64,000 bases of DNA from the NCBI GenBank assembly GCA_031292215.1, contig JARLHO010000061.1, positions 1-64,000 of the forward strand. The letters run 5' to 3'. Below are positions 1 through 14,442 of the stretch, piece after piece. The position numbers and the translations under genes were made by a program. The notes below the pieces were generated by a model that was not told the DNA's origin, made no database searches, and saw only the letters and a program-made list of their open reading frames with translations. How positions within the stretch are numbered: the stretch's first letter is position 1; every line of letters begins with the position of its first letter. The stretch comes from Syntrophobacteraceae bacterium. Its GTDB lineage: Bacteria; Desulfobacterota; Syntrophobacteria; Syntrophobacterales; Syntrophobacteraceae.

Positions 1-1831
1 CGACCGTCACGCTCTTTGCCAGGTTTCTGGGCTGGTCCACATCCGTTCCGCGAAGCACCGCGACATGGTAAGCGAGTAACTGCAGGGGCACGCTAAAGAG
101 AACCGGTGATAGCCACTGCGACGAAGGGGCAATCACGAACTGGTTATCGTCTGTCCCGACGATCTGGCTCGGTTTCCCTTCTATCAGGGCAAGGACTATC
201 CCGTCCCGGGCCTTTACCTCCTGGATGTTTGAGATCATTTTTTCAAAAAGCGGCCCCTCTTTTAAGAGCACCATCACCGGCATTTCGGCGTCGATAAGCG
301 CTATGGGGCCGTGTTTCATCTCGCCGGCCGCATATCCTTCGGCATGGATGTAGGAGATTTCCTTTAGCTTTAGCGCCCCCTCCAGGGCGATCGGGTACAG
401 TGGGCCTCTGGCAAGGTAGAGAAAATCTTTAAAATCTTTAAATTTTCTGGCCCATTGGCCGATCTTATCGGAATCCGAAAGAATTTTTTCAACCTTTCCG
501 GGAAGTTCGATAAGCTCCTGGATGCACTGCTCGATCGTCTCCCGCGAGGCCTTTCCGGTTTCAGCGGCCCAGTGGAGCGCGAATAGATAGAGGGCGACAA
601 GCTGCGTGGTGAATGCCTTTGTCGAAGCCACCCCTATCTCCGGACCGGCATGGGTGTAGATGACCCCCCGGGCCATCCTGGCGATGCTGCTTCCGACAAC
701 GTTTACGATTGCCAGGCAATGAGCGCCCTTATCCAGCCCCTCTTTTAGAGCCGCCCGGGTATCGGCCGTTTCCCCGGACTGGCTTATGACCAGCAGGAGC
801 ACCTTGTCGTCTAAGATGGGGTCACGTGAGCGAAATTCCGACGCAAGGTCCACTTCGACCGGGACCCGGCAAAGCCCTTCGAGCATGTACTTGGCCACCA
901 GCGCGGCGTGGTAGGAAGTGCCGCATGCCACGAGCAGAACCCGTTCGATCGATTCCAGCACCGATTTATCGAGGCTTAGCTCGGGGAAATGGACTTCCTT
1001 GCGGTCAAGATCCACGACGCTTCGGAAAGTGTCGATGATCGCTCGTGGCTGCTCGTAGATTTCCTTTAGCATAAAGTGCTTATAGCCGGCCTTTTCGGCC
1101 ATTATCGGGTTCCAGTTCACCTGCTGGACGACGGGATGACGCTCTTCCCCGTCCAAAAGAAACTCGATCGAGTAGCCCTTCCTGGATAGAAAGACGAGTT
1201 CCTCGTCATTTAGATAGACCACCTGGCGCGTATAGGGCAAAATGGCCGGAACGTCTGAGGCAAGGAAAAAAGCGCTGTCGGAAATCCCCATGATAAGTGG
1301 GCTTTCCTTCCTGGCAGCCACCAGCATGTCGGGTTCCTCTTCGTTTACAATGACCAGCGCGTAGGAACCTTTGAGCTTTTTCAGGGTATTTCGCACCGCT
1401 TGCTTGTACCCACTCGTTTTGCGCCGTTCGCTGTCAAGGAGCCTGACTATAACTTCTGTGTCCGTCTGGGACTCGAAATGGTGACCCGCCTTTTCCAGCT
1501 CATCCTTTAAAGAGGCGTAATTTTCGATTATCCCGTTATGAACCAGGGCAAAGGGGCCGCAGCAGTGCGGATGGGCATTTTCTTCCGAAGGCCTCCCGTG
1601 AGTCGCCCAACGGGTGTGCGCCACGCCGACCGTCCCGTTTACGGGGTTATCGACGAGCTTGGAGGCAAGTCCGCTAAGCTTTCCCTCGCATCGCACGATC
1701 TGGAGTCGGCCGCTGGCGCCGAGCATCGCAATGCCCGCGCTGTCGTAGCCTCGGTATTCCAGCCTGGCAAGTCCTTTCATCAGGATCTCGCGACCTTCCT
1801 CGGGACCGATATAGCCTACTATTCCGCACAT
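1..1831 (-). CDS. glmS: Glutamine--fructose-6-phosphate aminotransferase (3' end just beyond window)
   Basis: Converts fructose-6-phosphate and glutamine to glucosamine-6-phosphate, the first step towards UDP-GlcNAc for peptidoglycan and LPS. Read leftward, the protein begins MCGIVGYIG, so Cys2 is exposed after Met removal as the N-terminal nucleophile of the class II glutaminase domain. The last visible codons read RNLAKSVTV, the usual C-terminus before a final Glu and stop, so only about one codon and the stop are missing beyond base 1; 610 codons are present, matching the family (about 609 aa). The two SIS sugar-isomerase domains lie in the C-terminal half. The start is ATG at 1831, preceded by a weak AGGGA. 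It is divergent from dnaE. I see no glmS ribozyme, which would not be expected outside Firmicutes. Confidence 0.96.
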   Translation of the reverse strand, partial: MCGIVGYIGPEEGREILMKGLARLEYRGYDSAGIAMLGASGRLQIVRCEGKLSGLASKLVDNPVNGTVGVAHTRWATHGRPSEENAHPHCCGPFALVHNGIIENYASLKDELEKAGHHFESQTDTEVIVRLLDSERRKTSGYKQAVRNTLKKLKGSYALVIVNEEEPDMLVAARKESPLIMGISDSAFFLASDVPAILPYTRQVVYLNDEELVFLSRKGYSIEFLLDGEERHPVVQQVNWNPIMAEKAGYKHFMLKEIYEQPRAIIDTFRSVVDLDRKEVHFPELSLDKSVLESIERVLLVACGTSYHAALVAKYMLEGLCRVPVEVDLASEFRSRDPILDDKVLLLVISQSGETADTRAALKEGLDKGAHCLAIVNVVGSSIARMARGVIYTHAGPEIGVASTKAFTTQLVALYLFALHWAAETGKASRETIEQCIQELIELPGKVEKILSDSDKIGQWARKFKDFKDFLYLARGPLYPIALEGALKLKEISYIHAEGYAAGEMKHGPIALIDAEMPVMVLLKEGPLFEKMISNIQEVKARDGIVLALIEGKPSQIVGTDDNQFVIAPSSQWLSPVLFSVPLQLLAYHVAVLRGTDVDQPRNLAKSVTV

Positions 1832-11344: not shown

Positions 11345-11806
11345 TCACTCCGCGCCATCGGATTTTTCGCTCCTGGAAAAATTCCTTTTGCCGGCCATAA
11401 TGGTTCCCTTGCGGCCGGTCTTTTCTTTGTTTAAGGCGGAAACGATACACTGCCTGTTTTTCAAGTGGTCCTGGGCCGCCTCGAAGCTCGGGACGTTTGT
11501 TCCGATCAATTCCCTAACCTCCTCGATCGGGCAGTTCAGTGCATCTTCGGGATGGCAGAGCAAACAGGCGACTATTATTTTAAAGGAATCCTCCGGCACG
11601 CTCAGGGATTGGCAATCCACGATCAGTTCGCATAACCGGAAGAACAGATCCGAGGCTTGCTCGATTTCCTGAATCTCTCTCGAATAATTTTGCACTTCGG
11701 CAAACACCTGGCTTTTGAAATCGCCTCCCGTGCAGGAATGAGAGCCGGCCAGCATTTCCATGATCTTTTCCCTGAAAGGATCGTCACTGCGCAGGTCCGT
11801 ATCCAT
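11345..11806 (-). CDS. Hypothetical protein
   Basis: A 153-aa, mostly helical soluble protein without a signal peptide or membrane segment. It contains a Cys-containing central part (RLCELIVDCQSL, ACLLCHPEDALNCPIEE) and a basic tail (GKRNFSRSEKSDGAE). I do not recognise the family. GGAGGAAAA lies directly before ATG 11806, supporting expression. It is convergent with the carboxyltransferase gene and divergent from the PfkB kinase gene; a Fur-like AT-rich palindrome lies 50-68 bases upstream. Confidence 0.6.
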   Translation of the reverse strand: MDTDLRSDDPFREKIMEMLAGSHSCTGGDFKSQVFAEVQNYSREIQEIEQASDLFFRLCELIVDCQSLSVPEDSFKIIVACLLCHPEDALNCPIEEVRELIGTNVPSFEAAQDHLKNRQCIVSALNKEKTGRKGTIMAGKRNFSRSEKSDGAE

Positions 11807-12954: not shown

Positions 12955-14442
12955 TTAAACCGCGCCGCTTGATGTGTGCACGGCAGAGGGCATCGCCTGA
13001 TCGGCCTCACACTCTCCGGCCAGCCACTCCTCGATAGTCGGCGGCTGGATGGCCGACTGTGAAAGGGGGCCCCAATCGGGTCCCGCGCTCAAGTCTATTC
13101 CATTGTGTATAACCGATACGGGCCGGTCGGAGGAAACGACGACGACTATCAGGTTTTCGTGGGCTGCGCTAAACCGCAGGGCGGAGTTAAACCGTGCCCC
13201 TCTCGCGCGGTTTTCGCCGGGAATCGACTTTCCGTCGAGCAGGCAGGCGAACCCGTGCAGGCGAAGGTCTGCCCCGATATGTAGCGCCCCGTCGACCTTT
13301 GAAAGGGATTTGGCGAGATCGAGCATCGTTTCGTCGCAAAGATCGATTGGGACTTCGAGTTTCTGGCCGGAAATCGAGATAGGCGCGGAATTTAAGTCGA
13401 TTACAAGCGTTGCCCCGTGCCGCTGCTCGCCGGCCCGTTCCACGATGGCTGAGACGATTTTAAAAAGAGCATGCCTTCTCGATTCCAGAACGGGGGATTC
13501 GAGAAAAAGCTCTTCGAGATGGACCAGTTTCGGTTTTCGATTGGTGGAATGGAATCTTCCATCCGAAAAGCTGCACACCGCTTTTCCGGAAATACGCAAA
13601 AACCCGTGTCCGCCCCGGAAATCGGCGGTTAAACGGCACTCCGGCAAAGTCCCCCGGGTGACCCCGATAATCTTTTGGCCGTCGGAGATGAGTTTTCTGT
13701 CCGAATTTTCAACTGCGAGCATAAGCTTTCGCACAAGTTTGTGGTTGGAAAGTCTTAGCTTTTCCGGATTGGGAAACCTCACCATATAGCGCAAGGACTC
13801 GATCTTTACAGGATCTATGAACACCACTGTCCCGCGCGGCCAGGCGCCTTCCTCCCTGGTCTTGGAGATGCCCAGCACGGCGTCGAGGATCGGGTAGACC
13901 TCGATACGGCGGTCCAACCCGAATTTGACATCGAGCCGGTCCTGGACATAATCCCTTATGGCGTGCATCGCATATTCCCGGATCACGTAATACGAATTGC
14001 GCGTGTAGAACCACTCCTCATTGGCCCAGTCGTGAGCCAGAAGGCAGGCCGCGTGTTCCAGCCACCTCTCGGTCGGACCTGTCGAACACAGAGTCGAATG
14101 CTCTTCGGTAAACCACATCTGGTAGAATACAGGCATGGCCCTCCCGCCCCTGGACACAAGACCCGCAAGATCCAGCCCCTTTTCCGGAAGGGTCTGCCCG
14201 GGAAGCCCGGCCTGAAGAATACCCGACTCACACTCCCGCCACGTGCCGCACTTGAGATAGATCTTTTCAATGAGCGGCGCCCAGCCATTGAGGAGGTTTT
14301 GAGGATCGTAGAGACGAAGCGGACCGTCACGCTTCTCCGAGTAGAGAAGCGCCGCGCGGCTCGGACCGGAAAAATGGGTCAAGCCTTCGCTTAGCGCTTC
14401 ATGGATATGAAAAATGCTCTGAAGCTGGTATGAAATGTCCAT
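12955..14442 (-). CDS. Putative diadenylate cyclase (DisA_N/DAC domain) with N-terminal sensor-like region
   Basis: A 495-aa soluble protein. The C-terminal part (about residues 325-450) matches the DAC domain that makes c-di-AMP from two ATP: LFKIVSAIVERAGEQRHGATLVID, then VDGALHIGAD (the DGA motif, residues 384-386) and GARFNSALRFSAA..LIVVVVSSDRPVSVI at the position of the RHR motif. The RHR triplet is degenerate (R-F-N) here. The N-terminal 300 residues look like a sensor-type extension seen in other proteobacterial DAC proteins; I see no membrane segment. Starts at ATG 14442 or GTG 14490 are both possible and neither has a good Shine-Dalgarno. Whether it is active is not decidable from sequence. 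Confidence 0.7.
   Translation of the reverse strand: MDISYQLQSIFHIHEALSEGLTHFSGPSRAALLYSEKRDGPLRLYDPQNLLNGWAPLIEKIYLKCGTWRECESGILQAGLPGQTLPEKGLDLAGLVSRGGRAMPVFYQMWFTEEHSTLCSTGPTERWLEHAACLLAHDWANEEWFYTRNSYYVIREYAMHAIRDYVQDRLDVKFGLDRRIEVYPILDAVLGISKTREEGAWPRGTVVFIDPVKIESLRYMVRFPNPEKLRLSNHKLVRKLMLAVENSDRKLISDGQKIIGVTRGTLPECRLTADFRGGHGFLRISGKAVCSFSDGRFHSTNRKPKLVHLEELFLESPVLESRRHALFKIVSAIVERAGEQRHGATLVIDLNSAPISISGQKLEVPIDLCDETMLDLAKSLSKVDGALHIGADLRLHGFACLLDGKSIPGENRARGARFNSALRFSAAHENLIVVVVSSDRPVSVIHNGIDLSAGPDWGPLSQSAIQPPTIEEWLAGECEADQAMPSAVHTSSGAV

Follow-up and report, generated by a model that had tools for sequence, protein, structure and literature searches.

A DACND-DACNH-DAC protein from a Syntrophobacteraceae bacterium carries a conserved R-[FY]-N variant of the RHR motif and is a predicted divergent nucleotide cyclase

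DAC domains need two nucleotide-loaded lobes that meet head to head, as described in PMC8573169. In the Listeria enzyme CdaA, Asp71 contacts the ribose, Gly101, Thr102, Arg103, His104, Ser122 and Glu123 contact the phosphates, and Glu124 contacts the metal. The base contacts listed for it are the leucine of GALI and a main chain, not the RHR stretch (PMC7288161). When RHR was replaced by AAA in DacA of Mycobacterium tuberculosis, both ATP binding and activity were abolished (PMC3328451). The RHR motif is treated as a requirement for c-di-AMP synthesis. A further DAC belongs to the phage-defence system DS-2, which couples it to a CBASS cyclase. In the DefensePredictor paper, mutation of either of two predicted catalytic residues of this DAC led to loss of defence, and 15 of its 30 homologues adjoin a CBASS; the mutated residues may not include the R-Y-N stretch (PMC13092281).

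We analysed positions 1 to 64,000 of contig JARLHO010000061.1 (assembly GCA_031292215.1, a Syntrophobacteraceae bacterium of the Desulfobacterota), hereafter the window. It contains a gene whose product displays the domains DACND, DACNH and DAC, in that order and all above their Pfam cut-offs (Table 1). This architecture is already named in Pfam, and the protein is an ordinary member of it. In a six-frame search of the genome with PF02457, the locus scored 55.8 bits. An alternative GTG start lies 48 bases upstream of the ATG and would give a protein of 511 aa; the homologue alignment begins at the ATG, not at the upstream GTG. The earlier note on this DNA, made from the sequence alone, had recognised a DAC protein with DGA present and R-F-N at the RHR position, and both readings hold. 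In the protein, DACND and DACNH, both named in Pfam, make up the N-terminal part of about 300 residues; Pfam labels DACNH a probable sensor domain. The domains are compact and globular in the predicted whole-protein model (mean pLDDT 83.2). Comparison of the DACND model with known structures returned noise-level matches only (Z of 7.1 or lower, mixed folds).

Table 1 Coordinates of the gene and of its domains and motifs in the window
Feature	Window positions	Residues	Strand	Remarks
Gene, DACND-DACNH-DAC protein	12955..14442	495 aa	-	intact ORF, ATG to stop
DACND, PF21749	13918..14430	5-175	-	211.5 bits, cut-off 27; probable sensor
DACNH, PF21750	13573..13896	183-290	-	104.1 bits
DAC, PF02457	13099..13443	334-448 (modelled fold 317-454)	-	52.1 bits, cut-off 27
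DGA motif	13285..13293	384-386	-	D and G invariant in 23/23 DACND proteins and 7/7 plasmid DACNH-DACs
Signature R414-G-A-R417-F418-N419-S-A-L-R423	13174..13203	414-423	-	replaces GTRHRxA; by alignment
V-S-S-D	13126..13137	436-439	-	replaces V-S-E-E; D439 presumed metal ligand

The DAC fold is clear in the model. Structural alignment of this part with VIA gave a Z of 15.3 against CdaA (8c4n_B; 130 residues aligned, 2.9 A) and of 12.8 against DisA. A departure from DAC geometry, which had been named beforehand as the result that would speak against a DAC, was thus not found at the level of the fold. The DGA motif was placed by homologue alignment and profile comparison, as in the LDGA of a small DAC from the same genome; a single-sequence phmmer alignment to CdaA set LHIGA beneath the DGA of CdaA. 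By sequence alignment, as opposed to coordinates, four CdaA contact residues are kept (Asp384, Gly415, Arg417 and Ser437), while Thr is replaced by Ala416, His by Phe418 and Glu124 by Asp439. The AAA replacement in DacA altered all three residues of RHR, whereas the protein described here retains Arg417. With R417-F418-N419 where canonical DACs read R-H followed by R, H or M, it is not filed as a canonical RHR-type DAC. Purifying selection acts on this part of the protein, as dN/dS ranged from 0.04 to 0.15 in eight pairs with close relatives, and was lower in the DAC part than in DACND in all six pairs computable for both.

The conservation of the altered motif was surveyed in an unbiased manner, by a search of 395 genomes from the phylum using the DACND profile, which is blind to the active site. 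DACND was found in 24 genomes; one copy is truncated by a contig end, leaving 23 full-length proteins, the one described here included. All 23 displayed DGA together with RGAR[FY]NSA, with Tyr at position 418 in 16 and Phe in seven. The DACNH profile matched 23 of 390 genomes, every one of them also DACND-bearing. Arg414, Arg417, Asn419 and Arg423 are invariant among the 23 DACND proteins and among seven DACNH-linked DACs from plasmids (see below), and so are Asp384, Ser437 and Asp439 in these 30 DACNH-linked DACs. As controls we used 22 canonical DAC loci, obtained with PF02457 from the genome of origin and from 16 of the 24 genomes that carry DACND. Arg414 and Arg423 are absent from all 22, which carry Tyr, Leu, Phe, Trp or Met and Gly or Ser at these positions. 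Arg-His is present in 22/22 controls, followed by Arg (14), His (five) or Met (three). The third residue of RHR is thus not strict even in ordinary DACs, and the real change is therefore that of His to Phe or Tyr, with that of the preceding Thr to Ala.

The earlier note had called the RHR motif degenerate. In the sense of loss this does not stand, since the motif is invariant in all 23 DACND proteins; what it had missed is that the altered motif is shared by the homologues and flanked by two class-specific arginines. Decay of the motif was considered as an explanation and ruled out by the same conservation and by the low dN/dS. A scan of genome contigs returned 54 RFN and 25 RYN in 79 of 80 loci, counts that we set aside as evidence because the scan itself selected for the motif. 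The reading of R-[FY]-N as a conserved signature of DACNH-linked DACs, drawn from these alignments, is added here. In the literature searched, we found no biochemical test of the motif. As a separate observation, some CdaA-like proteins of the phylum (five loci) display DGG in place of DGA and retain GTRHR.

When 52 DAC domains (30 DACNH-linked and 22 canonical) were placed in a tree, the DACNH-linked DACs split from the canonical ones with support of 99/94 and the DACND proteins formed one group (95/95), a split that is suggestive and not proof of a single origin because long branches meet between canonical and DACND proteins. The genome scan found 463 relatives, 80 of which were kept; by their titles, these 80 belong to Desulfobacterota or to unplaced deltaproteobacterial or proteobacterial bins. 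Canonical DACs occurred in 15 of the 16 DACND-bearing genomes searched. The sixteenth, G161, is a single contig that is 99% complete, and the PF02457 search found no DAC in it besides its DACND-DACNH-DAC protein; the c-di-AMP riboswitch RF00379 was not found in this genome. G161 offers a natural setting in which to test if this class is able to supply c-di-AMP.

The genome of origin (4.9 Mb, 177 contigs) encodes two further DACs. One is CdaA-like and displays the ordinary motifs HDGA and GTRHR, so the protein described here is not needed for c-di-AMP in this host. The other, in the region 7226-10600 of contig C60, is a small DAC in an open frame of 204 codons with LDGA and GSRHM, which lies upstream of what by eye appears to be a guanylate kinase gene. 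A single RF00379 riboswitch was found in the genome (92.5 bits; contig C17, 5954-6084). It is therefore likely that this host has genuine c-di-AMP signalling, apart from the gene described here. The sequence beside the riboswitch, judged by eye, reads as a multi-pass transporter on the minus strand; control of transport by c-di-AMP would fit this arrangement.

The gene stands alone on its strand, with plus-strand genes on both sides. Its neighbours are a PfkB-type kinase gene and, at the other end, a metallo-beta-lactamase-like gene that scored 19.6 bits against a cut-off of 22.7. No conserved operon partner emerged from the 76 loci parsed (of 80): by mechanical ORF calls, the most frequent cluster of neighbours appears in 13 of them, at scattered positions, and, judged by eye, perhaps consists of sensor kinases. 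The window also contains a 153-aa ORF (11345-11806, minus strand) with no Pfam match.

The DACNH domain provided a second insight into this architecture. In the whole-protein model, its order of helices and strands is similar to that of the DAC part. We folded it alone (residues 176-314, positions 13501-13917; 37 sequences; pLDDT 86.3, pTM 0.82) and aligned the model with VIA to the 1000 chains ranked highest by Foldseek, which gave 43 PDB entries at Z of at least 2. The first 38 of the 43 entries listed are DACs, at Z from 9.4 to 7.5 with 104 to 121 of 139 residues aligned, and the next entry falls to 3.1; such Z values alone lie near the noise of the method, and the weight of the result lies in the single-family list and in the gap below it. 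Foldseek itself, with the same model, returned nothing under an E of 0.9 and no DAC among its best 50 rows. Profile comparison by hhalign found no homology between DACNH and DAC (probability of 0.3-0.4%, against 59% for the positive control, the DACs of this type versus ordinary DACs), so it is from structure that the pseudo-DAC reading is drawn. Between strands 257-262 and 270-276, which we read as the position of the RHR helix of DACs, the DACNH model has no helix. By this one method, DACNH is probably a catalytically dead lobe of DAC fold and, given the resemblance of its model to DAC domains, the protein is probably a tandem of pseudo-DAC and DAC. DACNH has retained invariant residues of its own (Glu197, Glu198, Gly204, Lys239 and Gly260 in 37/37; Arg238 and Gly199 in 36/37), thus it may bind something. 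The predicted DAC-like fold of DACNH is a new reading here. In our literature search, neither the R-[FY]-N class nor a DAC fold for DACNH was found described; Galperin 2023 (J Bacteriol) may already cover these.

Relatives on plasmids linked this class to phage defence. A tblastn search of plasmids with the protein described here found one relative, which used as a query found six more. These seven proteins, from Priestia, Citrobacter, Dyadobacter, Gluconobacter and Phycisphaera, all encode DACNH and all display DG[AT] and RG[AS]R[FYL]N. The Citrobacter protein scored 803.8 for the DS-2 component DS2_3 (NF053872; cut-off 630), and its two upstream neighbours, a phospholipase and a nucleotidyltransferase, pass the DS2_1 and DS2_2 cut-offs, respectively. 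For the Gluconobacter protein the DS2_3 score was 712.2. The Citrobacter and Phycisphaera proteins, both of DS-2 type, have no PF02457 match at an E of 0.01. The DS-2 DAC thus shares its active-site motif with the Desulfobacterota proteins, and we consider the loss of defence in the DS-2 mutants the strongest sign, an indirect one, that the R-[FY]-N class works as an enzyme.

Three loci on Priestia plasmids encode a DACNH-DAC with neither DACND nor DACNG and are candidate defence loci. One of them lies near a nucleotidyltransferase of SMODS type on the opposite strand, and one adjoins a DNA methyltransferase and restriction genes. No relative was present among 50,697 phage records. Three viral contigs of 27-44 kb encode distant DACNH-DAC relatives (24-29% identity) with RGAR[FY]N, found by a motif-biased pattern; these are possibly prophage-borne defence genes.

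Based on these findings, we postulate, at a rough probability of 0.55, that this is a soluble protein of a distinct and divergent DAC class, a predicted nucleotide cyclase under regulation. That the class is a distinct and working one is probable because the relatives share the same altered motif. The C-terminal DAC most likely would still join two ATP molecules, c-di-AMP being the default product. The triphosphate would be held in a rewired pocket, in which Asp384, Gly415, Arg417, Ser437 and Asp439 are kept and Ala and Phe or Tyr take the places of the Thr and His of GTRHR; Asn419, Arg414 and Arg423 presumably compensate. DACND would receive a signal at the N terminus, and DACNH may pack with, dimerise with or cap the catalytic lobe and in this way control the head-to-head dimer. 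One live and one dead lobe in each chain suggest control by choice of partner: DACNH could keep the catalytic face closed until a signal reaches DACND, or could hold the chains so that the live lobes meet.

The earlier note had left the choice between an active cyclase of a divergent class and a sensor. The cyclase is the better supported of the two, by the invariant motif, the contacts that are mostly kept and the DS-2 homologue, and the sensor is the lesser candidate. As a nucleotide sensor, the DAC domain would bind ATP or c-di-AMP without catalysis and signal to a partner, in the way that degenerate GGDEF and EAL domains do for c-di-GMP. We regard this as possible, though unlikely. Canonical cyclases are present in most of the genomes searched, which fits a sensor, but in G161 a protein of this type is the sole DAC found. 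Pseudoenzymes usually lose the catalytic acid, while Asp384 is invariant in all 30 DACNH-linked DACs. The replacement of the RHR His, a phosphate contact in CdaA according to PMC7288161, and of the Thr before it would also suit a sensor, as would the change of the metal-binding Glu to Asp. Against this, the DS-2 homologue requires its predicted catalytic residues, as reported in PMC13092281, although a binding role would fit that result too. For DACNH, an apparently DAC-like lobe without the RHR helix, a sensor role is plausible.

Rather unlikely is an active enzyme whose product is not plain 3'-5' c-di-AMP and would be mixed-base, linear or asymmetric, made from the live and the dead lobe. 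On the phosphate side, the rewiring of residues is invariant and specific to the class, the predicted secondary structure of the DACNH lobe has no counterpart of the RHR helix, and in DS-2 a DAC of this sort is coupled to a CBASS cyclase (PMC13092281). Yet the base contacts of CdaA listed in PMC7288161 lie outside the RHR stretch, and thus the choice of base need not change. Slightly more doubtful is a broader proposal, in which the DACNH-linked DACs would be a separate kind, a live lobe (D-G-A and R-[FY]-N) fused to a dead one, making an asymmetric or non-c-di-AMP signal for defence in DS-2 and for housekeeping or stress in Desulfobacterota.

That the protein is a phage-defence protein like DS2_3 is very improbable: its active site is of the same class and it has a weak match to NF053872 DS2_3_antiphage (67.5 bits over residues 186-445), but this is far under the cut-off of 630, its N-terminal domain is DACND and not DACNG, PADLOC called no defence system for it, no neighbour family exceeds 13 of 76 loci, and no CBASS partner turned up. 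An anti-phage role is therefore unsupported: five single-sequence phmmer queries, among them the DS-2 and Priestia nucleotidyltransferases and two phospholipases, revealed no adjacent CD-NTase or patatin phospholipase in the window or near 80 homologues, whose flanks were covered to at most 8 kb.

These findings have implications for how DACs are recognised. The class spans Desulfobacterota and plasmids of other phyla, and one of its DACs is required for phage defence. Most of the site surrounding RHR is retained, while RHR itself is exchanged for an invariant alternative. If its members are active, the rule by which DACs are judged dead or alive would not hold, and active cyclases can escape annotation, as the Citrobacter and Phycisphaera proteins illustrate. 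Should DACNH prove to be a dead DAC lobe, these proteins would be built-in tandems of DAC and pseudo-DAC, offering a test of pseudoenzyme control of second-messenger synthesis and also of what the second cyclase of DS-2 makes.

Among the known systems, CdaA/DacA and DisA share with this protein the DAC fold, DGA, the first Arg of RHR and the Ser of VSEE. It differs from them in GARFN for GTRHR, in the additional Arg414 and Arg423, and in the N-terminal DACND-DACNH. DisA has a DNA-binding C-terminal part, and the protein described here is without such a part. The small R-H-M DAC of the same genome resembles it in having DGA without the CdaA-type HDGA insertion and a third RHR residue other than Arg; unlike it, the small DAC keeps the His and has no N-terminal domains. 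The DS-2 DAC has the same succession of DACNH and DAC, with DG[AT], RG[AS]RYN and the class arginines, and differs in carrying DACNG instead of DACND, in its CBASS operon and in its DS2_3 score of at least 630 versus 67.5.
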